Shown here: positions 2,898 through 21,383 of the stretch, piece after piece
Layout of the letters: every line of letters starts with the position of its first letter
Numbering within the stretch: the stretch's first letter is position 1
Source of the DNA: a virus
Virus record (IMG/VR): IMGVR_UViG_3300027759_000430
Span: 1 to 23,598 of that record
Direction: 5' to 3' (one strand)
DNA length: 23,598 nucleotides
Notes under the pieces: model-generated
The model's database searches: none
What the model was told of the DNA's origin: nothing
Seen by the model: only the letters and a program-made list of their open reading frames with translations
Translations under genes and position numbers: made by a program

Positions 2898-3229
2898 GGC
2901 CAGTATCAGTCGGAGTTAGCCCAACAGCCAATACGTTAACAACTGTTTATACAGTTCCTACGGGTTATTACGCCAAGTTTACTGTGATGTACATTCACAA
3001 TACTGGTGGCTCGACTAAGCACATTACTGTTCAATGGTATGACGCAAGTGCTGCCACAACACTAGATATTCTTACTTCTTACGACTTTACTTCAAAGCAA
3101 TACCTTCAGTTTGATGGCAATGCTTATATCGTTTTAGAAGAAGGCGATAGAATTCAGATTACTACTCAAAGTGCAAGTACATTCAGTTTTATTGCTACAT
3201 TTGAGGTTCAAGGAGCGCAAAGAACATGA
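2894..3229 (+). CDS. Hypothetical phage structural protein
   Basis: A 111-residue protein predicted to be all-beta, with TVYTVPTGYYAKFTVMYIHN, KHITVQWYDAS and QLQ-like strands, and DRIQITTQSASTFSFIATFE near the end. This sandwich-like pattern is common in small head-tail interface or decoration proteins. It overlaps the previous gene by ATGA and the following tail adaptor gene by 4 nt, so it is expressed with the head-tail junction genes. I infer a virion role from position. Confidence 0.65.
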   Translation: MRPVSVGVSPTANTLTTVYTVPTGYYAKFTVMYIHNTGGSTKHITVQWYDASAATTLDILTSYDFTSKQYLQFDGNAYIVLEEGDRIQITTQSASTFSFIATFEVQGAQRT

Positions 3230-3870
3230 CCTACTTAGAACTTGTTAACGATGTGCTAGTTCGCTTGCGTGAAAGCACAGTATCTACTGTTGGCGAAACA
3301 ACCTATTCTTCTTTGATTGGCAAGTTTGTCAATGATGCTAAGCGTCAGATTGAGGATTCCTTTAATTGGAATGTTCTTAGCACAACAGTGACTATCACAA
3401 CTACTGCGAACACACACGCATATTCAATGACGGGTGCGGGTCAGAAGTTCCAAGTTAACGATGCTATTAACTCAACAAGTTTTATTGGTTTAAAAAATAT
3501 TAGTTTTGTGGACATGAACCGCAAACTAAATTTTGGCACTCCATCAACTGGTATACCTTCTGAATTCACCTTTGATGGTGTTGATGGTAGTGGAGACACT
3601 AAAGTAGAGTTATTTCCAATTCCTAATGGGGTCTATACAGTCATGTTTGACTTGGCTGTACCGCAAGCAACTCTGTCATCAGACGCTACATCTGTAAAAG
3701 TATTAGATTATTTGGTTGCCCAAAGTGCTTATGCAAGGGCTTTGATTGAGCGTGGTGAGGATGGAGGAACTGCCTCTTCCGAAGCCTATGCTTTGTTCAG
3801 GGGAATGCTCTCGGATGCCATTGCACTCGAAGGTACTCGCTATGTAGAAAACAACTTTGAACCTGTCTAA
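3226..3870 (+). CDS. Head-tail adaptor, T7 gp11-like (tail tubular protein A type)
   Basis: A 214-residue protein, close to the 196 residues of T7 gp11. The N-terminus is helical (MTYLELVNDVLVRLRES), with a conserved DAKRQIEDSFNWN segment at about residues 37-50 that marks this adaptor family. A beta-rich middle follows (about 55-150), then a helical C-terminus with LVAQSAYARALIERGEDGG. Adaptors of this kind form a dodecameric ring under the portal and dock the nozzle. It is directly followed, through a TAATG overlap at 3870, by the nozzle protein, as in T7-like genomes. Confidence 0.8.
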   Translation: MTYLELVNDVLVRLRESTVSTVGETTYSSLIGKFVNDAKRQIEDSFNWNVLSTTVTITTTANTHAYSMTGAGQKFQVNDAINSTSFIGLKNISFVDMNRKLNFGTPSTGIPSEFTFDGVDGSGDTKVELFPIPNGVYTVMFDLAVPQATLSSDATSVKVLDYLVAQSAYARALIERGEDGGTASSEAYALFRGMLSDAIALEGTRYVENNFEPV

Positions 3871-5414
3871 TGTCTAAGCCTCTACAAAGTTACAGTCTTT
3901 CAGCACCAGGCTTTTATGGCCTGAACACTGAAGATTCTCCCCTTGATTTAGGGGCTGGCTTTGCCTTGGTTGCTACTAACTGCATCTTGGATCAATATGG
4001 TCGTATTGGTGCTAGAAAAGGTTGGTCAAGGGTTAACTCTTCCTCTGGCAATCTAGGCGCTAATGATGTTGGTGTTATCCATGAGTTAGTCCAGACTGAC
4101 GGGACTCTTACAGTTCTGTTTGCTGGCAATAACAAGATATTCAAACTTGGTACTGCTAATGCGGTTACTGAGTTGACCTATGGTGGTGGCGGTTCTGCTC
4201 CTACTATTACCGCATCTAACTGGCAATGTGCCTCTTTGAATGGCATTACATACTTCTTCCAAACAGGTCACGATCCACTCATTTATGACCCCGCAGTAAG
4301 TACAACTACTTATCGCAGAGTGTCAGAGAAGTCTGGTTATGTAGCTACAGTTCCTCAAGCCAATATCGCTATTTCAGCATTTGGTCGTCTTTGGGTAGCT
4401 AACACTTCTACAGATAAGGTCACTATTAGCTTCTCTGATCTGATTGCAGGTCATGTCTGGGGGGGTGGAACTTCAGGCTCATTAGATGTCTCCCGTGTAT
4501 GGCCTAATGGTGCAGATGAAGTCATGGGTTTGGCAGCTCACAATGATTTCTTGTTTATCTTTGGTAAACGACAAATTCTTGTTTACTCAGGTGCTTCTAC
4601 TCCTGCATCTCTTGTTCTGAGCGACACAGTAGGCTCTATTGGGTGTATCGCAAGAGATACGATTCAAAGCATTGGCTCTGATGTTGTGTTCTTGTCTGAC
4701 TCAGGTGTTCGCTCTTTGATGAGGACGATTCAAGAGAAGTCTGCACCTCTGAGAGATTTGTCTAAGAATGTTCGCTTTGATCTGAACTCATCATTGGCGG
4801 GTGAGACATTGGCTAATCTAAAGTCTGTTTACTCAGAAAAAGAAGCCTTTTATCTGCTTGTTCTACCCGCTACCTTCCAAGTTTATTGCTTTGATACCAA
4901 ACAATCTTTGCAAGATGGTTCTTCACGGGTTACTAAGTGGGACTCTATTTCTCCAACATCATTGCGGTCACTCAGAAATGGTGATTTGTACATTGGCAAG
5001 AATGGGTATATCGGCAAGTATGGTGGTTACTTAGATGACACATCTACTTACAGATTTGCCTATTACACCAACAATGCTGACCTTGGCAACCCTAATCAGA
5101 TTTCTGTTTTAAAGACTATTTCAGCAATTGTGATTGGTGGCTCAAACCAGTTCTTAACGATCAATTGGGGCTTTGATTACTCAGGTGCTTATGAAGCACA
5201 AAACGTCTATATCCCTACCCAAGTTAGTTATGAGTATGGAACTGCTGAATATGGCACTGCTGAGTACACAAGTGGTATTCCAATTAAGACTTTAAGAGCC
5301 AATGCCTCTGGTGCGGGAAAGATTGTCCAGACTGGTTATGAGACAACCATCAATGATGTTGCATTGTCTTTGCAAAAGATTGAAATTCAAGCCAAAGATG
5401 GCAGAACAGCTTAA
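3870..5414 (+). CDS. Tail nozzle / DNA stabilisation protein (P22 gp10- or T7 gp12-like role)
   Basis: A 514-residue, beta-rich protein. The N-terminus [20 protein letters not shown] followed by [19 protein letters not shown] is a recurrent signature of phage nozzle or stabilisation proteins that follow a gp11/gp4-type adaptor. The middle repeats beta-propeller-like strands ([30 protein letters not shown]). A small tandem, [15 protein letters not shown], lies near residues 450-465. The length is nearer to P22 gp10 (about 470) than to T7 gp12 (about 790). It closes the tail channel and probably anchors the fibres. Which structural class it belongs to needs a profile or fold search. Confidence 0.75.
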
Positions 5415-5425
5415 GGAGAATTACT

Positions 5426-7216
5426 TTGAGTAACTATACAAAAACAGTAAACTTTGCGACTAAAGACAACTTGTCGCCTGGCAATCCTCTAAAGATTGTC
5501 AAAGGCACTGAGATTGACACTGAGTACAACAACATTGCTACTGCTGTTGCGACAAAGACAGATAACTCTGCTGCCGCAATTACAGGCGGTACTATTGTTG
5601 GCATTACCGATCTAGCGGTAGCTGATGGCGGTACGGGTGCTTCTACAGCGGCTAATGCACGAACTAATTTAGGCGCTGCGGCTAGTGGCGCTAATAGCGA
5701 CATTACTTCTATAACAGGTCTTACAACAGCGTTGACAGTTGCTCAAGGCGGTACTGGCGTTGCAACTTCTACAGGTACAGGTTCTGTAGTTCTGTCAAAC
5801 AGTCCTACTCTAGTGACTCCCGCCTTGGGAACACCCGCATCTGGCACTTTGACTAACGCAACGGGTCTGCCGATCTCAACAGGTGTTTCAGGTCTTGGTA
5901 CTGGTGTAGCGACATTCTTGGGTACGCCATCATCTGCTAACCTAGCCTCTGCTGTAACAGATGAAACTGGTTCTGGTGCTTTGGTGTTTGCCAATAGCCC
6001 AACTCTGGTTACTCCTGCTCTTGGAACGCCCTCTAGCGGTACTTTAACCAATGCTACTGGCTTGCCTATCAGCACAGGAGTTTCTGGTCTAGGAACGGGT
6101 ATAGCAACCTTTTTAGCGACTCCTAGTTCAGCAAATCTTGCTTCTGCGGTTTCTGATGAAACAGGCACAGGGGCTTTGGTCTTTGCTAACTCTCCTACAT
6201 TAGTGACACCTGCTTTGGGTACACCTGCTAGTGCGACTTTGACAAACGCTACAGGATTACCTTTGTCTACTGGTGTAACAGGAAATCTGCCAGTTACTAA
6301 TCTGAATTCAGGAACATCTGCAAGTGCATCTACCTTTTGGCGAGGCGATGGTTCTTGGGCAACACCATCTGGAAGTGGAACAGTTACAAGTGTTTCGGTT
6401 GTCTCTGCCAATGGTTTAGCAGGAACAGTAGCTACAGCGACATCAACTCCCGCTATTACCTTATCAACATCAATTACAGGTGTTCTTAAAGGTAATGGAA
6501 CGGCAATATCTGCGGCTACTGCGGGTACTGATTACGTTGCTCCTAGTGGTGCATTGGGAACTCCATCTTCAGGCACATTAACTAATGCGACAGGTCTTCC
6601 AATATCAACTGGTGTATCAGGATTAGGAACTGGTGTTGCAACTGCATTGGCAGTTAATGTTGGCTCATCGGGAGCGCCAGTAGTCAATGGTGGTGCTTTA
6701 GGCACTCCATCTAGCGGTACTTTAACCAATGCTACTGGTTTGCCAATTTCAACGGGCGTGTCAGGATTAGGGACAGGTGTTGCGACTTTCTTGGCGACTC
6801 CATCTAGTGCCAATTTAGCTTCTGCGGTTACAGATGAAACAGGATCGGGTTCTTTAGTCTTTGGGACATCACCAACTCTGACAAACCCAACTGTCACCAA
6901 CTATGTTGAGACTCCATATTCAGCCAATAGTTCTACTGCGATTACTTTAGCTTTGACTAATGGAACAGTACAAATCATTACCCTGACAGCAACTACAACT
7001 ATTACGATGCCAACGGCTACAAGTGGCAAGTCTTTTATTCTTTTGTTAAAACAAGATGCAACAGGCTCACGCACAGTCACTTGGACAACAGTTAAATGGC
7101 CTGGTGGTACTGCACCAACAATTACAAGTACAGCATCAAAGCAAGACATTTATTCATTCTTTGCTGATGGAACTAATTGGTATGGCACGACAGTTGGTCA
7201 GAATTACACACCATAA
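5426..7216 (+). CDS. Repetitive tail fibre protein ([14 protein letters not shown] repeats)
   Basis: A 596-residue protein starting at TTG 5426 ([16 protein letters not shown]), fixed by AAGGAG 7 nt upstream. The N-terminal ~60 residues ([20 protein letters not shown]) are the virion-attachment kind of domain. Residues ~75-480 are built from near-identical modules containing [17 protein letters not shown] and [14 protein letters not shown], rich in Gly, Thr, Ser and Ala, as in fibrous triple-beta shafts. The C-terminal ~110 residues are a compact beta domain ([20 protein letters not shown]…[16 protein letters not shown]) resembling fibre tips. It sits between the nozzle gene and a LamG fibre gene, so it probably forms a shaft. 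Protein repeats are far more alike than their DNA. Confidence 0.8.
5822..6860 (+). repeat. Degenerate tandem repeat in the fibre gene
   Basis: Five copies of the [17 protein letters not shown] module begin at 5822, 6017, 6212, 6551 and 6695. The first three have an exact 195-nt (65-residue) period and include the SPTLVTP and SSANLASAV segments. Between copies 3 and 4 lies a different stretch with [11 protein letters not shown] and [12 protein letters not shown]. Codons differ widely between copies despite near-identical protein. The exception is a 28-nt identical tract shared by copies 2 (6033-6060) and 5 (6711-6738). Confidence 0.85.
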
Positions 7217-7226
7217 GGACTGATAA

Positions 7227-9137
7227 ATGTTTGCCGCATCTAAAACAGCTTCAGTCTCTGCCGCAGCACCAGATGGTCAGTTTAACTACGTCACTATGTT
7301 ATTGCATGGTGATGGGACTAATGGCGCACAGAACAATACATTCTTAGACAGCAGTACAAACGCATTTAGCATCACCCGAAACGGCAATACAACCCAAGGT
7401 TCTTTATCGCCTTATGGGTCTAATTGGTCTAACTTCTTTGATGGTACTAGTGATTATTTAAGTATTGCAAACAATGCCGCTTTAAATATGGGCACTGGGG
7501 ACTTTACTGTTGAAGCATGGATAAATATCAGTAATATTGATTTTAGATGTATTATTTGCTTAGGACAATATAACAATGGTGCTGGTGTTTTAAGAATTAC
7601 TAATTCTGGAAATCTTCAATGGTATTGGAATGATGCGTCTTTTATTGTTACAAGTTCAACCACAGTAACAGTTGGTGTATGGAGTCATGTTGCTGTTGTT
7701 CGTTCAAGTGGAACAACAAAGTTATACATCAATGGAACAAACTCAGGTTCTGGGTCTGACTCAAATAGTTATTCAAGCACTTATCCAACATGGGTTGGTT
7801 CTGAAAATCAAGGGTCTGTTGAAAGTCCTTTTCATGGCAACATCTCAAATGTTCGTGTTGTAAAAGGGACTGCTGTTTACACAAGCAATTTCACACCTCC
7901 AACAAGTGCATTAACAGCAATTTCTGGAACTTCTTTATTGACTTGCCAAGCAAATCGTTTTCTTGATGCGTCATCTAATGCTTTTGCCGTCACAAGAAAT
8001 GGCGACACAAGCGTTCAACGCTTCAACCCATTTGGTACTTCTACCGCCTACTCTACAAGCGTGATTGGTGGGTCAGCGTACTTTGATGGTAGTGGGGACA
8101 ACATAACAACATCTGGTACTGGAAGTTTTAACCCAAGAAGTACCTTTACTGTTGAGTTCTGGACTTATCCAATTACTAACAGCACAGTAACTTGGATTAA
8201 CTCCAACACAGACAATTATTTTTATATTGAGACTAATGCTGGCACTCTTTATATTGGTGATGGAAGTTTAAACACAATTAGCACAACGCCTCCTCCATTA
8301 AATCAATGGACTCATTTAATGTTGTCTTTTGATGGAACAACATACAGGCTGTTCTACAACGGGGTTTCACAAGCAACTTCAACAAATTTGCTTGCTAGTA
8401 ACACAATAACTGTGTTTAAAGTTGGTCAGAAGAATGATGGTAATCGTTCTTTTAACGGCTACATAACCGATATGCGAGTGCTTGTTGGTACTGCTTTGCA
8501 GACTTCAACATTCACGCCTCCAACTGCACCGCTAACTGCAATTACTAATACGACTGTATTGCTTAAATTTCAAAACGCAGCAATCTTTGACAACGCCATG
8601 ATGAACGACTTAGAAACTGAAGGTGTTACTCAGATTTCTACAAGCGTGGTGAAGTTTGGTACTGGTTCAATTTCTTTTAATGGCAGTCGTTTAGTTGTTC
8701 CATCAGCACCTACTCTTATTTTTAATGGCAATTTCACTATGGAATGTTGGTTCTATCCAACTACATTAACTGGAAATGATGGAATATTTGCATCATCAGG
8801 TCAACGCTTTGGTTTGATTAGAGTTGGTGATTCTATTTATTGGTTAGGCTCACCTGATGTTGCTGGTAGTTCTGGAACTTTAACTGTTAATACTTGGCAT
8901 CATATTGCTGTTTCTCGCTCAGGTAGCACATTAAGACTTTTTGTAAATGGTGTTTTAGGCGGTAGTGGAACAACAACACAAGTTAATAGTTCAAACATTT
9001 GGTATGTTGGAAGTAATCAAGGCAATGAAAATTTAGAAGGTTATATTGATGACCTACGAATCACCAATGGATACGCTCGTTACACAGCTACCTTTACCGC
9101 CCCAACATCAGCATTCTCAGATACAGGCCCATATTAA
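7227..9137 (+). CDS. Triple LamG/concanavalin A-like tail fibre or receptor-binding protein
   Basis: A 636-residue protein made of three related LamG-type (concanavalin A-like) jelly-roll domains at about residues 20-230, 236-440 and 448-632. Each has an entry strand with LLHGDGTNG, LLTCQANRF or LLKFQNAAI. Each then has a strand like GDFTVEAWINI, STFTVEFWTYPI or GNFTMECWFYPT, and a W(S/T/H)H(V/L/I) strand ending in a Y/F-x-N-G turn (KLYINGT, RLFYNGV, RLFVNGV). Each closes with a DLR/DMR/NVR…GTAVYT-like strand. Such domains bind carbohydrates or proteins and are common in phage fibres and baseplates. The ATG at 7227 follows AAGGA. Its place beside the shaft gene and before a fibre chaperone suggests a host-binding fibre. 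Confidence 0.8.
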   Translation: MFAASKTASVSAAAPDGQFNYVTMLLHGDGTNGAQNNTFLDSSTNAFSITRNGNTTQGSLSPYGSNWSNFFDGTSDYLSIANNAALNMGTGDFTVEAWINISNIDFRCIICLGQYNNGAGVLRITNSGNLQWYWNDASFIVTSSTTVTVGVWSHVAVVRSSGTTKLYINGTNSGSGSDSNSYSSTYPTWVGSENQGSVESPFHGNISNVRVVKGTAVYTSNFTPPTSALTAISGTSLLTCQANRFLDASSNAFAVTRNGDTSVQRFNPFGTSTAYSTSVIGGSAYFDGSGDNITTSGTGSFNPRSTFTVEFWTYPITNSTVTWINSNTDNYFYIETNAGTLYIGDGSLNTISTTPPPLNQWTHLMLSFDGTTYRLFYNGVSQATSTNLLASNTITVFKVGQKNDGNRSFNGYITDMRVLVGTALQTSTFTPPTAPLTAITNTTVLLKFQNAAIFDNAMMNDLETEGVTQISTSVVKFGTGSISFNGSRLVVPSAPTLIFNGNFTMECWFYPTTLTGNDGIFASSGQRFGLIRVGDSIYWLGSPDVAGSSGTLTVNTWHHIAVSRSGSTLRLFVNGVLGGSGTTTQVNSSNIWYVGSNQGNENLEGYIDDLRITNGYARYTATFTAPTSAFSDTGPY

Positions 9138-9145
9138 GGAACATC

Positions 9146-9610
9146 ATGCAAATTGCAATCTTAACTAGCCCCATTACAGTAGGGGATTATCGTGAACTGT
9201 TTAGCAATACATCATTCAACGCTAACGGCCCAAGTGATGAATTCTTAACTGCCAACAATGCCAAGAAGGTCAATGCCTTTAAAGCACACGACAGTCTGAC
9301 TCAGAAGTTGGTTTCATGCTCTGCCTATGACGATGGTGCATTTGTTTCTGTCGTTCAAGTGGCTGACCTAAGTGCTGAAGAAATCCAAGCCGCCAAGGAT
9401 TCTGCAATGGCACAACTGAGAGCCACACGCAATGCTTTATTGCTTGCTTGTGATTGGACTCAGATTGCTGACTGCACCATTCCTAAGAAGGCTGAGTGGG
9501 CAACATACCGCCAGACATTGAGAGACTTTCCATCGACTGTTTCTGATGCAAGATCGACTATCACTTGGCCTCATAATCCTGATTGGGTTGAGCCAATTGG
9601 AATAGCGTAA
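9146..9610 (+). CDS. Tail fibre assembly chaperone-like protein
   Basis: A 154-residue protein. The C-terminal half carries RATRNALLLACDWTQIADC, then KKAEWATYRQTLRDFP and WPHNPDW. The signature R-N-x-L-L-x-x-C/S-D-W-T-Q…W-x-x-Y-R-Q-x-L-R-D-x-P is the recognised motif of phage tail fibre assembly and tail assembly chaperone proteins (XkdW/DUF4376-like). The N-terminal half is variable (AILTSPITVGDYRELFS), as expected of a part that matches its particular fibre. It follows the LamG fibre by 8 nt with an AAGGA site, so it probably serves one or both fibres. It could also be a minor virion component. Confidence 0.8.
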   Translation: MQIAILTSPITVGDYRELFSNTSFNANGPSDEFLTANNAKKVNAFKAHDSLTQKLVSCSAYDDGAFVSVVQVADLSAEEIQAAKDSAMAQLRATRNALLLACDWTQIADCTIPKKAEWATYRQTLRDFPSTVSDARSTITWPHNPDWVEPIGIA

Positions 9611-9622
9611 TAAGGAGCAATC

Positions 9623-12412
9623 ATGGCAGCGACTAACCAACAAGTTCTAGATTTTTTATTGTCATCACCTAATTTAAGTGATGCTGATATTTATTCTTTC
9701 ATGCAAGAAAAAGGTGTTTCTGCATCTCAAATTTCTAATGTCACAGGTGTTCCAATATCAGAAATTTCTTCTCGTGTTGAAGCAATTGCCCCACAAAATG
9801 TACTTGGTGGTACGATTTTGGCGGGTGACAGTTGGTTAGCGGGAGAAGAGAAAACTGCTATTGCTAAAGAAGCATTTGGCGAAGATGTAACCAATGTTGC
9901 TGTTGGTGGATTTAAGACTCAAGATGCTTTGGATCAGTTAAATAGCTTTCTAAACAAGGGTGGTGTTTTTAAAGCAGGTTCTACTGTTGTCTTAGATATT
10001 GGTGGTAATGATCTTTTGCAAGGTGTTAGCAGAAATACTGTTAAGAGCAACATAGATCAAATGCTATCAATCTTTGAGCGTGAAGGCGTAAAGGTTGTTC
10101 TATCTGGTGCGCCAGCAGTAGGTTCTGTTTCAGACGTTACTTCAAGCAATAACTTGAAGATGGACTCTTTGTATAAAGAAGTTGCTCAAGGCTATGACAA
10201 CGTAACTGTAGTTGATGCCATGTCTGGTTTACTGAACAGTAAAACTTTGGTTGATGCGTCAGGATTCCACGTTAACACAGCGGGTCAAACTGAGTTTTTA
10301 AACCAATTAGCAAGTGCAACTAACACAAAAGCTACTCCTACTGAAGTTGTTGCTGAGATAACACAACCACAGAAAGACTTGGCTTTAACCACAGAAAACA
10401 TCAATAAATTAGCGGCTCAAATTCTTGCTCAAAACACAACTGGTGCATGGTCTGGTGGATTGCCTCCTGAGACTTCTGCTTTGTATATGGCTAGCGACTT
10501 AGCCAAGAGTGGTGTTACTGATATCAACCAAGTTGGAAAAGGAACAGACGGGATCATCAACAAACTTACTGGTGAAAAACTTGTTTCTGGTTATGCAGAA
10601 AGAACTAAAGGAAACCTTTGGTCTGGTTCTTACTCTGGTGTGGGAAACACGGGTTTTGGCGTTGAGTTTGATGAGGGTGGAAAGCCTATCTTCTTTACAC
10701 AAGGCGCATCTTCTAGCACCTTAAAGAAAGACTTGCTTAAACTAGCGGCTGTTGCGGGTGCGGTTTATGGCTTGGGTGGCTTTGAAAGTTTGCTTGGTGG
10801 TCTTGGTGCTACTGAGGCCGCAGCATTAACTGCGGGAGACTTAGCCATAGGCGGTGGTGCTTTGGCGGGAACGCCTTTTACTGCGGCACAACTAGCTGGT
10901 TTTACAGCAGGAACAGCGGGTACAGGATTGTTATCTGGCGGCAGTTTGACAGCGGGTTTAACAGCCGCAGATATTGCCGCATTAGAGGCGGGTTTGCCAT
11001 CAGGATTAGGTAGTCTCACGGCAGGTATAACAGCGGCAGATATAGCGGCATACGAAGCCGCATTGCCATCAGGATTGGGAAGTTTAACAGCGGGTATTAC
11101 AGCCGCTGACATTGCGGCAGCCGAAGCGGGATTGCCTGGATTGACAGCGGCACAACTTGCGGCATTGTCTAGTGGAGGGTTGTTAAGCGGTGGTAGTCTA
11201 ACAGCGGGTTTAACGCCAGCTCAAATTGCGGCAGGAGAGACTGCATTAACAACAACAGCGGGAACAACTGCTGGATCAAAACTATTAGCCGATACTCTTA
11301 CAAAAGCAGGTATTTCAACTGCGGTAAATAGTGTTCTTGGTGGTGGAACACCAAACCTCAGTAACTTGTTTTCTGGTGGACTAGGAACAGCAGGTAATCT
11401 GCTTCAGATGCAACAATCAAGGGAAGCGGCTCAACAAGCCCAAGCCCGTATTGATGCTGAGACTGCTGCGGCTAAGGCTGCGGCTCAGTTTAGACCTGTT
11501 GGCATGACTACTCGCTTTGGTACTTCACAATTCCAAACTGATCCAGTAACAGGTCAATTGATTAGCGCAGGTTACACACTAAGCCCTGAAGCTAAAGCCC
11601 AACAAGACAGGTTTGTTGCCTTGTCAAACCAAGGATTAACTCAAGCAGAAGGCGCACAGGCTCAATTTGCACCATTGCAGACGGGTGCAACAAGTTTGTT
11701 TACTCTTGGTAACAAGTATCTTGCCCAATCACCACAAGATGTTGCTCAAAATTATCTTGCTCAACAGATGGCTTTGTTGCAACCAGGCCGTGAGTTAGAG
11801 TTTGCTAATCTGCAAACCAAATTGAGAAATCAAGGTCGTCAAGGTTTGTCTGTAGCTCAAGGCGGTGATTTAGGTGCTACTACTCCTGAGTTACAGGCTT
11901 TGTTTAATGCTCGTGCTAGACAAGAGGCTGAGTTGGCGGCTAATGCTCAACAATTAGGTCAAAGAGATGTCTTGTTTGGTTCAAGTCTATTAGGTCAAGG
12001 TGCTCAAGCTATGGGTCAATACTATGGCGGTCAACAAGCCTCTTACGCTCCTTATACGACTGCAATGGGTCAGGTTCAAAATCTTGAGGCTTTGGGACAA
12101 CAGCCATTCACTTTGGGTACACAACTTGGTCAAACAGCATCAAATGCGGGTGCAAGAGTTGGTCAATTAGGTTTAGAAGGTGCTAGATTGAGTGCTGGTT
12201 TAGCAACAAGTGCTGATGCAACAAGAAACCTTGGCGCTCAAAGTTTGATTGCGGCAGGTAATCCTAATGCTATGTTTGGTCAGTCATTAAATAATATGTT
12301 TAGTGGGTTATTTAATAATCCACAAGGCAGTTTGACATCGGGCTTAACGCCTTCTTCAGTTGCGGCATCAGAAGCTGGGCTGCCTATTGACTATAATTTT
12401 CTTTACAGTTAA
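9623..12412 (+). CDS. Internal virion protein with N-terminal SGNH/GDSL hydrolase domain
   Basis: A 929-residue mosaic. Residues ~1-55 are a small helical segment (QQVLDFLLSSPNLSDADIYS). Residues ~60-230 are an SGNH hydrolase: block I GDS with Ser70, block II VAVGG, block III GGND with Asn129, and block V with His216 in GFHVN. The Asp normally three residues before this His is Ser213; Asp211 is nearby. Residues ~365-440 are Gly/Ala-rich and hydrophobic. Residues 441-545 hold 23-residue repeats (SLTAGITAADIAAYEA type). Residues ~600-890 are Gln/Ala-rich and helical, as in podovirus ejection proteins. It is the first of three large consecutive internal-protein-like genes. A plausible role is DNA ejection with cell-surface ester or glycan cleavage, but neither is shown. 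Confidence 0.75.
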   Translation: MAATNQQVLDFLLSSPNLSDADIYSFMQEKGVSASQISNVTGVPISEISSRVEAIAPQNVLGGTILAGDSWLAGEEKTAIAKEAFGEDVTNVAVGGFKTQDALDQLNSFLNKGGVFKAGSTVVLDIGGNDLLQGVSRNTVKSNIDQMLSIFEREGVKVVLSGAPAVGSVSDVTSSNNLKMDSLYKEVAQGYDNVTVVDAMSGLLNSKTLVDASGFHVNTAGQTEFLNQLASATNTKATPTEVVAEITQPQKDLALTTENINKLAAQILAQNTTGAWSGGLPPETSALYMASDLAKSGVTDINQVGKGTDGIINKLTGEKLVSGYAERTKGNLWSGSYSGVGNTGFGVEFDEGGKPIFFTQGASSSTLKKDLLKLAAVAGAVYGLGGFESLLGGLGATEAAALTAGDLAIGGGALAGTPFTAAQLAGFTAGTAGTGLLSGGSLTAGLTAADIAALEAGLPSGLGSLTAGITAADIAAYEAALPSGLGSLTAGITAADIAAAEAGLPGLTAAQLAALSSGGLLSGGSLTAGLTPAQIAAGETALTTTAGTTAGSKLLADTLTKAGISTAVNSVLGGGTPNLSNLFSGGLGTAGNLLQMQQSREAAQQAQARIDAETAAAKAAAQFRPVGMTTRFGTSQFQTDPVTGQLISAGYTLSPEAKAQQDRFVALSNQGLTQAEGAQAQFAPLQTGATSLFTLGNKYLAQSPQDVAQNYLAQQMALLQPGRELEFANLQTKLRNQGRQGLSVAQGGDLGATTPELQALFNARARQEAELAANAQQLGQRDVLFGSSLLGQGAQAMGQYYGGQQASYAPYTTAMGQVQNLEALGQQPFTLGTQLGQTASNAGARVGQLGLEGARLSAGLATSADATRNLGAQSLIAAGNPNAMFGQSLNNMFSGLFNNPQGSLTSGLTPSSVAASEAGLPIDYNFLYS
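10943..11260 (+). repeat. 23-residue SLTAG(L/I)TAADIAA repeat, with a detached C-terminal copy
   Basis: Copies start at 10943, 11012, 11081 (exact 69-nt period) and 11195, encoding SLTAGLTAADIAALEAGLP and variants. A further copy, SLTSGLTPSSVAASEAGLP, lies more than 1 kb away at 12329, forming almost the last residues of the same protein (903-929). The repeat resembles a short helical hairpin with a Thr cap. Confidence 0.8.
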
Positions 12413-12421
12413 GGATTCATC

Positions 12422-13675
12422 ATGGCAGAAAATATCGTAGCGGGTCTGTTTGGTATGACTCCACAAATGTATCAAAACCAACAATATGGGCAAGACTTAA
12501 ATCGTGGCATTGCATTGGCACAACTCTCGCCTGGTGCTGCGGCACAAGCGGGACTTCAGGCTAGTGTTGGTCAACTAGGTCGTGGCTTTGCGGGTGCTAT
12601 GGGCATAGAAGACCCTCAGTTAAAGTTAATTAGTGCTAGACAACAAGTTTTTGGACAGATAGATCAATCTAACCCTGAATCCATGTTGCAAGGCATAAAA
12701 ATGCTAGGACAAATGGGTGACAATCAAGGTGCTATGGCTTTGGCAGAATACTATCGTAAAGCTCAAGGTGAGATGGCTCAAGCTGAACAGCGTTTGGCGG
12801 CAAGTAAAGCATCTTTGGCACAGGCGGCTCGTGAGCGTCAACAGGCAACTCCCAACGATATTCAGATTGCCAATGAGATTGCTACTTTGGAAGACACGCT
12901 TGCTCAAATTGAGGGTCTACCAGCAGACCCAGAGCGCACTCGTGCTAAGAATTTATTAAATACTCGTTTGACAGAGTTACGTAGATTAACAACTAAAGGT
13001 GAAAAAGCAGATACAAAAACTGAAATTCAAAAACTTCAAGAATATGCCGCTACATTGCCAGAAGGTTCTCCTCTTTTAGCTCAAGTTCAAGCGGTAATTA
13101 AGGCAAAGGCTGAAGCAAAAGGCACTACTATTACCAATGTGTTGCCTGGTGACAAAACTTTGGCTGATATTCCTGCATTTAGGGCTAGTGTCCAACGCAC
13201 GATTGATCCTCAACTTAAAGCAGTAACTGCTGCTGATAATGCTTTGGAAAATATCCAAGACTCTATCAATACAAATAACTTTGCCTCTTTTAGGGCGGCA
13301 CAAACACAATTTGCTAGGGCTATTTCTGGTAGTGGTGATTTGAGTCAGAAAGAATTGTTAGCGGCTGGCGCTGATCCATCATTGCTTGGTGGGACTGCGG
13401 ATTATGTGGCTAGATTATTTACTTCTACTCCAACTCTTGATACACAAGAAAAAATCAAGAAGACACTTTTAGCCATTAAGAAAGTTTCTACAAATAAAGC
13501 TAAGACTGAGATTGAAGCACAGCGCAAAATTGCTTACAGTAATCCTGGCTATGACAAGGCTCGTGTTGACCAAGCTCTTGATTTTCCTGAGTTTGTAGGT
13601 GCTGGTGGTGCAGAAAAGAAAACTAATACCAGAACATTAAAAAGCGGTAAAGTTGTTACTGTTGTTGAAGAATAA
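12422..13675 (+). CDS. Internal virion / DNA ejection protein (T7 gp15-like position)
   Basis: A 417-residue, mainly helical protein rich in Ala and Gln. The N-terminus is MAENIVAGLFGMTPQMYQNQ, followed by LSPGAAAQAGLQASVGQLGR and MLQGIKMLGQMGDNQGAMAL. A strong coiled coil spans about residues 110-170 (AEQRLAASKASLAQAARERQ). The C-terminal part (about 260-400) is helical with KEDL-like repeats and ends KSGKVVTVVEE. These features, the location between two other large virion genes and the 9-nt spacing to the previous gene fit an internal core or ejection protein. Sequence divergence in this class is extreme, so the assignment rests on synteny and composition. Confidence 0.65.
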   Translation: MAENIVAGLFGMTPQMYQNQQYGQDLNRGIALAQLSPGAAAQAGLQASVGQLGRGFAGAMGIEDPQLKLISARQQVFGQIDQSNPESMLQGIKMLGQMGDNQGAMALAEYYRKAQGEMAQAEQRLAASKASLAQAARERQQATPNDIQIANEIATLEDTLAQIEGLPADPERTRAKNLLNTRLTELRRLTTKGEKADTKTEIQKLQEYAATLPEGSPLLAQVQAVIKAKAEAKGTTITNVLPGDKTLADIPAFRASVQRTIDPQLKAVTAADNALENIQDSINTNNFASFRAAQTQFARAISGSGDLSQKELLAAGADPSLLGGTADYVARLFTSTPTLDTQEKIKKTLLAIKKVSTNKAKTEIEAQRKIAYSNPGYDKARVDQALDFPEFVGAGGAEKKTNTRTLKSGKVVTVVEE

Positions 13676-13684
13676 GGATACATC

Positions 13685-16327
13685 ATGGCGGTTTACGAAA
13701 TTGATGGTAAGCGGTATCAAAGCGATACACCTTTAACAGATGTCGAACTAGAGGAGTTATCTGGAAAGCCAACTCCTTCTATGGGTGCGGTGGTTGCTGA
13801 GTCTGCACGAAAAGGTTTGGCAAGTAGTGTTGGCACTACTTCTGGTCTTGCTAATTTACTATTTTCTGCTTTGGAGCGTACTGGTATAAACCCATTAACA
13901 ATGGGGATGAGAGCTTCTGGTGGAACTGTTGCTCCTGCACCAACAGAGGGCGGGATTGTTGAGACATTTAAAGCTGGTCGCCAACCTGTTTATAAAAGTG
14001 TCATGGAATCTTTGGGGACTACTGGTGTAGAGCCTCAAGGTGGTTTCCAAAAGATTATTGGTCAAGGTACAGAGGCTGTTACTTCCCCAGAAAGTTATCT
14101 ATTCCCTCCATTGGCAGCCACAAAGCGTCTAGGTTTGTTTGGTCAAACATTATTACGTCCTACTGAGCAACAAGTTATTGGCTCTACCGCTGAAGCGGGT
14201 GGTCAAGCGGGTGAGTATGTTGGCGAAAAAATGGGCGCTCCCACTACAGGTCGGATTATGGGTAGTGTTTTGGGTGGTGGCGGTGGCTCTTATGCTTTAG
14301 GAACTACGCTAAAAACTGTTCCTTTGGCTGGAAAAGCGTTTGATGCCGCTGCTTCTCAATGGAGTAAGGTTCGTGGAACTATTCCTGAAGATGAATTGCT
14401 TAGAGATGTAGACAACCGCATTAGCAATATCTTTATTGCCGCAGGTTCTGCCGATCCAACAATCATGGATACGATTACCAAAGCCGCCAAAGCACAACAA
14501 AATCTTTCATTGAAAACACCTGGTGGTGCGCCAATACAGATGCCTGTAAGTTCTTTGTTGGCAGACAATCCTGTTGTCAATCAATTGATCCAAAGTCTTT
14601 CTGCTAAAGACCCTGTGTTTAGAGCGCAGTATGGCAATCAGTTTGAGCAAGCAAAACAGGCTTTGGCTGCTAGTCAAGTTCGATTGTTTGGTGACCCATC
14701 TAAAGTTAAAGTGGATATTTCACCACTTGATTTGGCTAAACCACAAGCCCGTAGAACTCGCACCATTGATGAGCAGATTGCAGACACCTATAAGGACGCT
14801 ACGCTTGATCCTAATGTCTTTGGTCAACGGGTTTCTGCACTTGTTGCCGCCAAAGAAGATGCGGCATTAAAATCAGTTCAGCCGCTTTATTCAGAGGCTT
14901 TTGACATTGCAAAACAGAATAATGTTAAATTACCTGCCAACTCGGTGGATGACATCTTTAACTTTGTTGCGGGTGAGCAAGCATCTGACATCTTCAAAAC
15001 TTTCCCGTCTATCTACAATCGTGTGAAGGCTAAATTTCGTCCTTCAGAAGTACCACCTAGTCCCATTCTTACCGCAGAAGGCAAGCCTATGACTGAGGGT
15101 GGCATTAAGTTTTCTGCCGCTACAGTAGAAGATTTGGACTCTCTCAAGCGAGAAATCAATAAGCAATTGCGTAAAACAAGCGAACCTGCTGATATTCGAC
15201 TGCTCTCAGAGTTAAAAGCCCGTGTTGGTGGACACATTGACAACCTTGATCCTGACTTTGTTCAGGCTTATCGCAATGCAGATGCTTCTTACTTCCAAAA
15301 GGTTGGTTTGCCATTCAATTCTGAAACATTGAAGGCTGTTGACCGAAAGAAGTTTGTTGAGCAGATTGCTCCCGCCATCATTGGCAACAAGTCTAATGTT
15401 GATGACTTTATTAAAGCTACTGGCGAAGAGGGTGTTCGTGTTGCTAGAGATGCCTTCTATGACAGTTTCAGTCGTGCGGCTTTAAAGAATGATGTTATCG
15501 ACCCCAAAGCGGCTAATAAATGGCTTACCAAAAATCAAGGTGGGATGTCTTTAGTGCCAGGCTTAGAGGATGAACTTCGTACTGCTTCAAACAATGTTAC
15601 TGCCCTGATTGCAGAGCGTAATCGTTTGGATGCCGCCTTTAAGAAGGTTGCTGGTGACCAAATCATAAGTTCTGGTGGTTTTAAGAGTCCACAAGATTTG
15701 GTTTCTAGAATGTATGGCGATGTGAACTTTACCAATAAGTTCATGCAACAGTATGGGGCTAATAAGGATGCAGTAAATGCGGCTCGTTCTTTCATGTTGG
15801 ATGACATTGTTCGTGCGGGTGATCCAGTTGCAGTATTGAACGATAGAACAAAAGCGGCTGTGTTTAACAGAGTGTTTGGCCCAACATACGCTCAGAAGAT
15901 TCAAGACTTTGCTTTGGTTTCTGGCAGACTGAATAGAGACTTGACCAATGTGCCATTTAAGGTCGAAACAGTACCCAAAACACCATTTGAGAGTGTTGTT
16001 GGCATACCTCCAGAGCAAGTTATTTCACGCTTCACAAACCCTGTTTCTGGGCCGTTCTATGCCATTAGTTCATTGATGAGTAAGTTTTGGGCAAACAAGG
16101 CATCGGCAGCAACAGAAGAGAAGCTGAAGACTCTATTGCTAAACCCTTCTGAGGCAGTAAAAGTTTTTGAATCTCTAAAGCAAAAGAATGGTGCTTTTGA
16201 CCAAGATAAAATTCAAGAAGCTATCAGGATTGGTAAGAAGTTTGGCATTGATTGGGGTCGTGATGCAATTCAAGATATTGCAACTGGTGCAGCTAGAGGC
16301 GCTGTTCAACCAATGACTGAAGAATAA
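13685..16327 (+). CDS. Large internal virion / DNA ejection protein (T7 gp16-like position)
   Basis: An 880-residue protein, the third in the internal-protein block. The N-terminus has a short YEIDGKRYQSDTPLTDVELE domain found at the start of many phage core proteins. Residues ~40-75 and 185-215 are Gly/Ser/Ala-rich and partly hydrophobic (SVLGGGGGSYALGTTLK), possible membrane-inserting segments. Residues ~225-770 are helical and charged. The C-terminus is amphipathic (IGKKFGIDWGRDAIQDIATG). No transglycosylase motif is evident, unlike T7 gp16. It probably crosses the envelope during ejection. Function is inferred from order and size. Its TAA overlaps the next start as TAATG. Confidence 0.65.
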   Translation: MAVYEIDGKRYQSDTPLTDVELEELSGKPTPSMGAVVAESARKGLASSVGTTSGLANLLFSALERTGINPLTMGMRASGGTVAPAPTEGGIVETFKAGRQPVYKSVMESLGTTGVEPQGGFQKIIGQGTEAVTSPESYLFPPLAATKRLGLFGQTLLRPTEQQVIGSTAEAGGQAGEYVGEKMGAPTTGRIMGSVLGGGGGSYALGTTLKTVPLAGKAFDAAASQWSKVRGTIPEDELLRDVDNRISNIFIAAGSADPTIMDTITKAAKAQQNLSLKTPGGAPIQMPVSSLLADNPVVNQLIQSLSAKDPVFRAQYGNQFEQAKQALAASQVRLFGDPSKVKVDISPLDLAKPQARRTRTIDEQIADTYKDATLDPNVFGQRVSALVAAKEDAALKSVQPLYSEAFDIAKQNNVKLPANSVDDIFNFVAGEQASDIFKTFPSIYNRVKAKFRPSEVPPSPILTAEGKPMTEGGIKFSAATVEDLDSLKREINKQLRKTSEPADIRLLSELKARVGGHIDNLDPDFVQAYRNADASYFQKVGLPFNSETLKAVDRKKFVEQIAPAIIGNKSNVDDFIKATGEEGVRVARDAFYDSFSRAALKNDVIDPKAANKWLTKNQGGMSLVPGLEDELRTASNNVTALIAERNRLDAAFKKVAGDQIISSGGFKSPQDLVSRMYGDVNFTNKFMQQYGANKDAVNAARSFMLDDIVRAGDPVAVLNDRTKAAVFNRVFGPTYAQKIQDFALVSGRLNRDLTNVPFKVETVPKTPFESVVGIPPEQVISRFTNPVSGPFYAISSLMSKFWANKASAATEEKLKTLLLNPSEAVKVFESLKQKNGAFDQDKIQEAIRIGKKFGIDWGRDAIQDIATGAARGAVQPMTEE

Positions 16328-16703: not shown

Positions 16704-16939
16704 CCATCGACACCATCAAATTGTTTCCTACTGTTCAGCCATCAGGGTATCCAGACAGGCACGATCTTGCCCAAGTAAAGCTAGAAAAACAGCATGAAAT
16801 GAACAAGGCAAATGAAGTAGCAAAGCAAAAACAGACAGAACTGCAAGACTTAGCGTTTGAGATTTATACTAAAAAAGTAGTTCAAGAGCGACTCCGTATG
16901 GAGATATTTCAGAATCGTAAACTGGATATTTATGTATGA
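16700..16939 (+). CDS. Hypothetical coiled-coil small protein
   Basis: A 79-residue soluble protein with an N-terminal TIKLFPTVQPSGYPDRHDLA followed by a long charged helix (KLEKQHEMNKANEVAKQKQT…) from about residue 25 to 70. Both ends overlap neighbours by 4 nt (ATGA). It has no membrane segment. A role in lysis timing or in virion assembly cannot be told apart from sequence alone. Confidence 0.6.
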   Translation: MTIDTIKLFPTVQPSGYPDRHDLAQVKLEKQHEMNKANEVAKQKQTELQDLAFEIYTKKVVQERLRMEIFQNRKLDIYV

Positions 16940-17202
16940 CCAAGAAACCAATAAAACCATCAATAGAAGTCAAAGACAAGTTAACCCTGTGGGTGACTCT
17001 CATGGTAAGCGCAACCCTGTGCATCTCTGTTTTGGCTATGGTAATCAGCTTTATGCTTGGCCTCTGGGCCAAAGAAGTGGACAACGCAGAGATATTCAAA
17101 ATGATTTCACCCGCTTTTTCTACACTTATCGGAGGCATGATTGGCTTCCTGAGTGGTATCAAGCTGATGCAAAATGACGAAAAATCTAAATGTAAGGAAT
17201 AA
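16936..17202 (+). CDS. Two-span membrane protein, possible holin or antiholin
   Basis: An 88-residue protein with two predicted transmembrane helices, about residues 17-44 (LTLWVTLMVSATLCISVLAM…) and 55-78 (FSTLIGGMIGFLSGIKLM). It has a Lys-rich N-terminus (MTKKPIKPSIEVKDK) and a charged C-terminal tail (QNDEKSKCKE). The size, the two spans and the place just before a 3TM holin-like gene and the endolysin match a class II holin or an antiholin partner. The ATGA overlap at 16936 fixes the start. With two holin-like genes in a row, this one could be the regulator. Confidence 0.6.
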   Translation: MTKKPIKPSIEVKDKLTLWVTLMVSATLCISVLAMVISFMLGLWAKEVDNAEIFKMISPAFSTLIGGMIGFLSGIKLMQNDEKSKCKE

Positions 17203-20538: not shown

Positions 20539-20775
20539 TCAAAACGGCAGGTCTTCGTCTTCAAAACTAGCCTTTTTAGGGGCTTGTTTGGGCTGATAGT
20601 CTTCTTTGGGTGATACTGCTAAACCCATGAATTTGCCTGACTTGCCCTCTTTAATCCATGCAGATAGCCAGTAATCCTGACCGCCCACTGTAATATTTCC
20701 TTTGTAATCAGGGTGTTTCTCCGACTCTTTTTTGTCGTTCTTAAATAAAACGCCACTGTTGTCCTTCTTTTCCAT
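20539..20775 (-). CDS. Hypothetical ssDNA-associated protein with SSB-like C-terminal tail
   Basis: A 78-residue protein. The N-terminal part (EKKDNSGVLFKNDKKESEKH) and the core (PDYKGNITVGGQDYWLSAWI…FMGLAVSPK) form a small beta-barrel-like domain frequent in phage replication regions, where it neighbours annealing proteins as here. The C-terminus is disordered and ends EDEDLPF, nearly the acidic tip (DDDIPF) by which bacterial SSB recruits repair and replication enzymes. I use the ATG at 20775, overlapping the previous gene by one base; a GTG three bases earlier is possible. An OB-like fold is conjecture. Confidence 0.65.
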   Translation of the reverse strand: MEKKDNSGVLFKNDKKESEKHPDYKGNITVGGQDYWLSAWIKEGKSGKFMGLAVSPKEDYQPKQAPKKASFEDEDLPF

Positions 20776-21383
20776 CACATTTCCTTTGCTTTCTTTAACG
20801 CACTTCTTACTTTACTGGGTAGGAGTGTCCACAATGCAATCTTTTGTTCTGCATCAAGGTTCTCTCCTTCCAACTTATCCCAAGCTGCCTTGGGGTCACC
20901 TTGCTCACAGGTAGCAATCAATTCAACTGCCATCTCTTGCAAGTACTGTAATTCCTCTGGAGGAATGTTATCTTGTGCGCCCTGAGTAGGTGTAATCACT
21001 ACCGATCTGCCCTCTTCAGGCAAGTCTTCACCCGCATAGATGTATAGACCCAAGCCATGCAGACTTAAAGCCTTTGTCATGCACCGCATGATGGCAGTGT
21101 TTACCGCAAACGCATCGGGAGTAGGGATGGCCTTATTTCTGTAGTCCATCACAGGCAATTGACAGGTCATTGGTTTGCCAAACATGGTAGCGGTAACAAA
21201 CACCATTGCCGTACCATTGATTTCCATGAAACACTTGTCGCCAAACATCTCTACTTTGTAGGTGGCGGTAGGATCAGCTTTGAGAGCTTCTGCCCATGCC
21301 CAAGCCCATGATAGGTAGGTCAGGTTGTTTTTCTTCTCTGTATGAGAATTGACATCTTTTTTAAGTAACGCTTCTATTGACAT
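20775..21383 (-). CDS. DUF1071/Sak-type single-strand annealing protein
   Basis: A 202-residue protein. The N-terminal domain contains NNLTYLSWAWAWAEALKADP, a strand KVEMFGDKCFMEINGTAMVF, then VMDYRNKAIPTPDAFAVNTA and MRCMTKALSLHGLGLYIYAG. The sequence LSWAWAW, MDYRNK…P and the NTAxMRCxxKAxSLxGLGLYxYAGEDLP block are the recognised core of DUF1071 (Sak3-like) annealing proteins, placed with the Rad52-like recombinases. These coat single-stranded DNA and anneal complementary strands in phage recombination. The C-terminus (about 140-202) is a charged linker plus a small helical domain. It shares an operon with the SSB-tail protein. No exonuclease partner is in the window. Confidence 0.8.
   Translation of the reverse strand: MSIEALLKKDVNSHTEKKNNLTYLSWAWAWAEALKADPTATYKVEMFGDKCFMEINGTAMVFVTATMFGKPMTCQLPVMDYRNKAIPTPDAFAVNTAIMRCMTKALSLHGLGLYIYAGEDLPEEGRSVVITPTQGAQDNIPPEELQYLQEMAVELIATCEQGDPKAAWDKLEGENLDAEQKIALWTLLPSKVRSALKKAKEM

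Follow-up and report, generated by a model that had tools for sequence, protein, structure and literature searches.

An exchangeable SGNH-hydrolase domain on a possible ejection protein of a putative short-tailed phage

What use would a phage have for an SGNH-hydrolase domain near the start of a long protein encoded among its virion genes? The question is raised by an open reading frame (ORF) of 929 amino acids (aa) at positions 9623-12412 of the IMG/VR virus record IMGVR_UViG_3300027759_000430, the whole of which, 23,598 bases that are probably a fragment of a phage genome, was analysed here and is called the window; features described below lie on its plus strand unless stated otherwise. A sequence-only reading had described the product as an SGNH hydrolase fused to a giant, Gln/Ala-rich internal virion protein of ejection type, with an active site that might be altered. 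In the present analysis the SGNH domain is found to be an optional, interchangeable cassette on a strongly conserved body, and we judge the chances to be about even, on the evidence of sequences and models, that it is a modular esterase on an early ejection-type protein, which would act on acylated components of the envelope at the point of entry.

A swappable SGNH domain on a conserved body

By sequence profiles and predicted structure, residues from about 56 to 235 (9788-10327) are a genuine SGNH-hydrolase domain. Residues 80-222 match the Pfam family Lipase_GDSL_2 (8.6e-11; 43.1 bits against a cut-off of 32.9), the Pfam family Lipase_GDSL is matched at 31.5 bits against a cut-off of 23.6, and the closest solved proteins by sequence, found with phmmer at 3.2e-8 to 8e-8, are the SGNH esterases CrmE10 and AlinE4. 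The AlphaFold2 model of residues 50-250, built from an 80-row alignment, has a predicted local distance difference test score (pLDDT) of 87.8 and a predicted template modelling score (pTM) of 0.83. A Foldseek search with this model gave 106 PDB matches at E <=0.001, and the best 50 of these are headed by TesA and other SGNH/GDSL enzymes and include three designed-scaffold chains. Superposed with VIA-align, the model fits TesA of P. aeruginosa (4JGG) with Z 18.3 over 161 residues at a root-mean-square deviation of 2.5; also among the closest folds are a polyesterase level with TesA (9OTV, Z 18.2) and E. coli thioesterase I (1U8U and 1IVN, Z 17.4 and 16.9). TesA and thioesterase I are bacterial, single-domain proteins, 19-24% identical to the window domain. 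The part of the model that superposes on SGNH enzymes contains both Ser70 and His216, the presumed nucleophile and histidine. Structure prediction and superposition had been proposed as a check by the sequence-only reading, and the comparison, run on residues 50-250, bears out its placing of an SGNH domain in the N-terminal part of the protein; chance matches to the motifs are ruled out by the Pfam scores, the model and the TesA superposition. The window protein has no match in PHROGs. Among the viral structure matches listed from BFVD, the best is A0A6J5LR05, a 1293-aa protein of an uncultured Caudovirales phage with 39% identity over the SGNH domain, to which the comparison is limited, and it is therefore likely, judging by sequence, that a member of the family is already public without a function.

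The SGNH domain is preceded by a helical motif of about 50 aa (residues 4-54; 9632-9784), common to relatives without SGNH, and is followed by a mid domain with a confident fold in the model (residues 256-362; 10388-10708), a stretch that is Gly/Ala-rich by composition (residues 381-570; 10763-11332) and a conserved body modelled as long helices with moderate confidence (residues 575-895; 11345-12307). The label Gln/Ala-rich is true of this C-terminal body, which is 14% Q and 17% A; the label giant is generous for 929 aa, the longest SGNH-bearing relative in the sample having 1907. The N-terminal motif, which ends near VTG-P-EI, is also found on proteins with different cargo (at the loci L018, L005 and L056, in our numbering) and occurs twice in L018; it could be a docking module. 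Within the Gly/Ala-rich stretch a 69-bp tandem repeat (10949-11136, 2.7 copies) encodes a Gly/Ala-rich unit of 23 aa, and a similar unit lies near the C-terminus. A ribosome-binding site, AAGGAG at 9612-9617, stands five bases 5' of the ATG.

The modularity of the protein is seen when the conservation of the body is set beside that of the SGNH domain. In 21 other chosen members the body is 66-83% identical to that of the window, and many relatives also have the mid domain and the first 50 residues, while the stretch between them varies. Full-length SGNH-bearing relatives other than those at L002 and L003 have bodies 75-82% identical to the window body and SGNH domains 27-44% identical to the window domain, and five bodies without SGNH are 73-84% identical; at L002 and L003 the bodies are 80 and 83% and the SGNH domains 92-93% identical to those of the window, and a protein cut short (L049) is 91% identical over 123 body residues. 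Of the 96 distinct ORFs that have both a start and the body, window included, 22 have the domain, and it is present on 12 of 68 distinct body proteins from loci with an adaptor or nozzle-like homologue, a survey that dropped 5'-cut ORFs, identical copies and loci without such a homologue. Thirty body proteins, that of the window among them, come from loci in which the nozzle-like protein is at least 90% identical; 21 of these have no SGNH domain, six have one with the motif GAS and Val at the oxyanion position, two (the window and L003) have one with GDS and GGND, and one has GMNE. A Pfam scan of 56 relatives found Lipase_GDSL in seven and DUF4214 in eight; the alignment of these relatives keeps 43 rows, those with a region below 350 aa or near-identical to others having been dropped. 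Since the body is conserved where the SGNH domain is divergent or absent, the contents of the slot that holds the domain have been replaced far more rapidly than the regions around it, a pattern that suggests a changeable tool for passing the bacterial surface.

Active-site residues and two forms of the site

The motifs on which the sequence-only reading had built the active site, GDS (residues 68-70), GGND (127-130) and GFHVN (214-218), and the residues Asp211 and Ser213, are all found in the translated ORF where it had placed them. Their conservation was assessed in 96 ORFs with an SGNH domain, which yield 80 distinct domains with a length of 160 aa or more, window included, once identical and shorter copies (that of L047, for example) are dropped; the loci were fetched with degenerate patterns, so the counts of types given below are not natural frequencies. 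Ser70 (9830-9832), the candidate Block I nucleophile, is Ser in each of the 79 domains whose sequence extends to its column, one of the 80 being truncated there, and the Block V histidine His216 (10268-10270) is His in 80 of 80. Asn129 (10007-10009), the candidate oxyanion residue of Block III, is replaced by Val or Leu in 68 of 80. The Block II Gly would be either of the last two residues of the VGG at 94-96, position 95 being Gly or Ala and position 96 Gly in 78 of 80 domains each.

The catalytic Asp is less straightforward. At the usual place, three residues before His, the window has Ser213 (10259-10261) and thus reads SxxH for DxxH; across the domains this column holds Ser in five, Thr in four, Asp in one (L127) and a gap in 70 of 80. 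Asp211 (10253-10255), five residues before His, is a candidate for a displaced catalytic Asp in the arrangement D-x4-H: all nine longer-loop domains, window included, have an Asp five or nine residues before His, and an Asp precedes His by 3-9 residues in 80 of 80 domains. In the nine longer-loop rows this Asp is preceded by Leu-Val or Leu-Met, and in most GAS rows by Leu-Leu-Val or similar. One alignment pairs Asp211 with the GAS-type Asp, with a two-residue insertion after it and one gap before it, and in the 80-domain alignment the two lie one column apart. We read Asp211 as the Block V Asp, probably shifted upstream in a longer loop, a reading that hinges on gap placement; single bridge residues flank the loop from Asp211 to His216 in the AlphaFold2 model, which would fit the two residues being close.

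Three observations speak against this reading. In the ungapped phmmer alignment it is Ser213, not Asp211, that aligns with Asp178 of CrmE10; the mutation of that Asp to Ala inactivated CrmE10, according to the available part of the report (PMC7294632); and L127, whose loop has the same length as that of the window, has its DxxH Asp at the position of Ser213. Loss of the catalytic Asp is nevertheless the less likely explanation, because the family always has an Asp before His, although the alignment of that Asp is ambiguous. The earlier suspicion of an altered active site is answered in part by the constant presence of an Asp upstream, and keeps some weight through CrmE10 and L127. The excerpts consulted of two reports describe SGNH enzymes without the Asp that can act as Ser-His dyads or through a water-linked Asp (PMC9487903, PMC12313940), and one of them gives the Asp three residues before His as usual rather than universal, since it is absent in some CE2 members, SsEst and NanS (PMC9487903); with accepted members lacking it, this Asp is not taken here as defining SGNH membership.

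The 80 domains fall into two active-site types. The larger comprises 65 domains with GAS, GGVD and D-x2-H, two with GAS, GGLD and D-x2-H, and one with GGVD and D-x2-H whose row is cut off at Block I. The other comprises domains with GDS, of which seven, including that of the window, have GGND and D-x4-H, two have GGND and D-x8-H, one (L127) has GGND and D-x2-H, and two have GMNE and D-x2-H. The replacement of the oxyanion Asn by Val or Leu in the larger type (L017, L065, L153 and L155 are examples) leaves Ser, Asp and His in place and is strictly coupled to Block I: every GAS row has Val or Leu (67/67) and every GDS row has Asn (12/12). A maximum-likelihood tree separates the 68 Val/Leu rows from the others by a branch with support 100/99, and L127 adjoins them on a long branch. 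A single origin of the change is therefore enough, and because of this shared descent the coupled replacements may amount to a single event. The type with GDS and Asn, to which the window domain belongs, is presumed to be the older form.

Both forms are under purifying selection. The ratio of nonsynonymous to synonymous substitution rates (dN/dS) of the domain is 0.10-0.16 in four of four pairs of the window type, two of which have dS near 1.4, close to synonymous saturation, and its median is 0.121 in a random sample of GAS pairs (103 pairs within the dS limits). Some acetyltransferases lack the Block III Asn, and for these the available part of PMC9487903 gives a proposal that hydrophobic residues near or in its place exclude water. 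By analogy the Val/Leu group is possibly a non-hydrolytic or transferase form, and the phages that carry it might, through a coordinated rebuilding of the SGNH site, bring into the envelope a module that transfers or binds acyl groups, an idea prompted by those acetyltransferases that we put forward as speculative and rather unlikely.

Gene order and the place of action

The virus looks, from its genes, like a short-tailed phage, because an adaptor and a nozzle-like gene are present. From left to right, the gene for the major capsid protein is followed by that for an SU10-type adaptor (3226-3870; Pfam SU10_adaptor), then by the gene for a protein that we call nozzle-like (3870-5414), by two tail proteins of fibre or lectin type and a chaperone for tail fibre assembly, Tail_APC, identified by Pfam and PHROGs (5426-9610), and then by the ORFs of 929, 417 and 880 aa; 3' of the last of these are small ORFs and a phage lysozyme. 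The nozzle-like protein matches PHROGs 5107 ('amidase'), 3287 (virion structural) and 578 (head closure); the best of these is phrog_5107, whose 'amidase' name is possibly a propagated misannotation. The second tail protein (7227-9137, 636 aa) contains three Laminin_G_3 stretches (9e-62).

It is this position, at the head of three long ORFs that come after the adaptor, nozzle-like and fibre genes, together with the layout of one related locus, that favours an ejection role. Podoviral ejection genes are clustered as gp14-like, gp15-like and larger gp16-like members, as the available text of PMC8954989 describes, and 929, 417 and 880 aa fit such a trio in order and sizes. By position and size, the 417-aa ORF (12422-13675) is a possible gp15-like and the 880-aa ORF (13685-16327) a possible gp16-like ejection protein; neither has an identifying family match in Pfam or PHROGs. 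At L148 a homologue of the body (46% identity over 224 residues; 332 aa, cut at the 3' edge of the locus) is encoded separately behind the nozzle-like gene, with a single fibre-like ORF of 76 aa between the two, and the SGNH domain is on another protein, encoded 3' of the capsid gene beyond an intervening 110-aa ORF.

Size, hydropathy and profile weigh against membership of the T7 gp14 family. The AlphaFold2 model of residues 250-929 (42 rows; pLDDT 64.9, pTM 0.31) is confident for the mid domain and not for the repeats, and shows the body, with moderate confidence, as long helices and one hairpin; a Foldseek search with the body model returned no PDB match at E <=0.001, and a PDB sequence search with the body profile returned just repeat proteins, at E 2.3-2.7. 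Chains of T7 gp14 are the top phage matches in the VIA-align comparison of the body, second (8e4g_a, Z 7.9) and twelfth (9jz0_0, Z 7.0) among the matches listed; they stand there among unrelated helical proteins, and Z values of 7.0-7.9 are possibly non-specific. The profile comparison with hhalign finds no similarity between the body and gp14 (probability 0.1). The available part of PMC8954989 describes gp14 proteins of 181-240 aa with predicted transmembrane helices. The window protein has no 19-residue segment with a Kyte-Doolittle mean above 1.6, the highest being 1.37 in what is a crude transmembrane test, and its size is a misfit, not only at 929 aa but also for the body alone (about 320 aa) and for the separate homologue at L148 (at least 332 aa). 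Membership of the gp14 family is not claimed, because the VIA-align scores are possibly non-specific, profile similarity and a hydrophobic segment are lacking and the size is wrong. The description of the protein as ejection-type is thus plausible by gene order and by the separate body gene, and fails where it is compared with gp14 in size, hydropathy and profile.

The gene order can also be taken in another way, in that the SGNH gene stands immediately behind two genes of fibre or lectin type and that of the Tail_APC chaperone, as a tail fibre gene might. The protein would then be an external appendage of tail or head, fibre-like, whose SGNH domain deacetylates surface polysaccharide before entry in the manner of tailspike esterases. 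Among the best 50 viral structure matches, four bear the names tail fibre, tailspike or tail hyaluronidase, and for five of the 56 body relatives there is a weak match to a 'head fiber protein' PHROG. Against this, the body is predicted as the helices and hairpin described above and not as a beta-helix or fibre, and at L148 its homologue is encoded on its own shortly after the nozzle-like gene. The body is also strongly conserved, and receptor-binding parts are usually variable. Because the phage esterases described, in the parts available of the reports, sit on tail fibres and tailspikes (PMC11126041, PMC11654681, and DEV gp53 with its 'carbohydrate esterase-like domain', PMC10925440), an external appendage keeps a minor but real share of the weight. 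A different location again, as a late or structural protein whose domain is incidental (a scaffold, a tape measure, or a protein with an intracellular role in assembly or lysis) that is not delivered to a new host, we consider quite improbable. It would suit L153, where the SGNH protein is encoded directly after the portal and before the scaffold and capsid genes, and L130, whose SGNH protein has a weak tape-measure PHROG match (E 0.0095) at its C-terminal motif region; it would also suit six of the 96 SGNH loci (L131, L137, L146, L149, L162 and L168), where the SGNH gene has a lysozyme homologue 2.2-4.5 kb upstream and where homologues of the window virion genes were not seen, a departure from a uniform virion context that counts against an ejection role as well. 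The window ORFs scanned (ten with Pfam and PHROGs, and ten with Pfam, one of them a repeat) gave no tape-measure match, however, and homologues of the window virion genes are present in 37 of the 96 SGNH loci, window included, the other 59 being unclassed.

The remaining alternative concerns catalysis rather than location: the domain could be a non-catalytic SGNH fold that binds an acylated glycan or another ligand, its altered sites reflecting lost hydrolysis. The Val or Leu in 68 of the 80 sampled domains would agree with this, the more so as the change of the Asn to Ala abolished the activity of a Streptomyces SGNH lipase (PMC10779480, in the part available), and so would the SxxH of the window. 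Pfam NonGDSL matches 66 of the 80 domains and OSK 11 of the 80 (E 0.01), the NonGDSL scores being 19.7-21.3 among the matches listed, against a cut-off of 80. The window type, however, retains Gly, Asn, Ser and His, and the conservation of Ser, His and a preceding Asp extends to the Val/Leu group, which a dead site would not explain; we regard a purely binding domain as improbable.

In the mechanism that we prefer, the conserved helical body would most likely be the first of three ejection-type proteins, with its N-terminus as an interchangeable slot that in the window holds an SGNH esterase. The 929-aa protein would leave the virion early in infection, and Ser70 and His216, probably with Asp211, and with Gly and Asn129 as the oxyanion hole, would deacylate the glycans or lipids of the envelope at the site of entry.

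Distribution, related systems and significance

The family is represented in viral contigs, in which the SGNH profile finds 78 loci and the body profile at least 586 stretches. Searches of 50,697 phage records with tblastn gave no match to the SGNH part, none to a GAS-type domain and none to the body, for which low-complexity filtering may mask Ala/Gln-rich matches, and megablast of the window against the same records gave none; searches of genome contigs found no relative of the whole protein, and none by the SGNH profile. With the whole protein as query one phage record was matched, at residues 254-365. This record, MW202710.1, is the named-phage relative of the first 54 residues and the mid domain: its 508-aa protein with these two parts comes after the portal, whose annotation is head to tail connecting protein, and one small ORF separates it from the scaffold. 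The relatives of the capsid and nozzle-like proteins come from unrelated hosts.

The SGNH domain is also found in other settings. It heads proteins of 735-860 aa in another phage lineage (L153:5144-7351, L155:7803-10385, L160:6377-8689 and L185:7815-10202), where its gene lies directly 3' of a 710-aa ORF, a portal by PHROG in L153, and 5' of scaffold and capsid genes. Four SGNH ORFs among the six loci with an upstream lysozyme exceed 700 aa, in a genome layout unlike that of the window, and SGNH proteins of 1213-1907 aa (L130:7620-11261, L193:7662-13385 and L151:4223-9625) share a similar C-terminal motif of GDGQSD type. Elsewhere in the window, two ORFs (16932-17177 and 16936-17202) overlap in different frames with starts four bases apart, the second resembling a membrane protein, and the minus strand encodes a Sak-type single-strand annealing protein (20775-21383; 6.9e-40).

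The nearest parallels among known ejection proteins are T7 gp16, which has transglycosylase activity, and K1E gp35, which has lysozyme activity; the available text of PMC8954989 also states that a peptidoglycan hydrolase domain at the N-terminus can pass from one ejection protein to another and that some phages lack it. The window protein resembles these, as far as that text describes them, in that a mobile and optional enzyme domain, N-terminal as in T7 gp16, is carried by what would be the ejection protein of a podovirus, and would differ from them in that its enzyme is SGNH and not murein-cleaving, that it is on the first gene of the trio and that its ejection is deduced from genes. CrmE10 and AlinE4 (PDB 7C23, 7C82; PMC7294632) have Ser and His at the same places as the window domain, but they are free bacterial enzymes with DxxH where the window has D-x4-H. 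DEV gp53 and the fibres and tailspikes of Acinetobacter phages (PMC10925440, PMC11126041, as excerpted) likewise have an SGNH or esterase-like domain on a phage protein; unlike these external esterases, the remainder of the window protein is predicted to be helical and is Gly/Ala- and Gln-rich. The enzymes described on phage ejection proteins, in the sources as available, are peptidoglycan hydrolases (PMC8954989) or, in N4-like phages, RNA polymerase, and a literature search found by title, among the matches listed, no SGNH/GDSL domain on an ejection or internal virion protein.

If the preferred mechanism is correct, an optional esterase on what appears to be the first ejection protein would suggest that envelope acyl groups are a barrier during DNA entry, beyond adsorption, for phages of a kind common in IMG/VR. 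The two coordinated active-site states are a natural experiment on how far the SGNH fold tolerates loss of the oxyanion Asn, and if the Val/Leu form does deliver an acyl-handling module, these phages would interact with their hosts through ester chemistry at the entry site as well as, and separately from, their tail fibres. The question that follows is how variation in the slot relates to host range, independently of those fibres.

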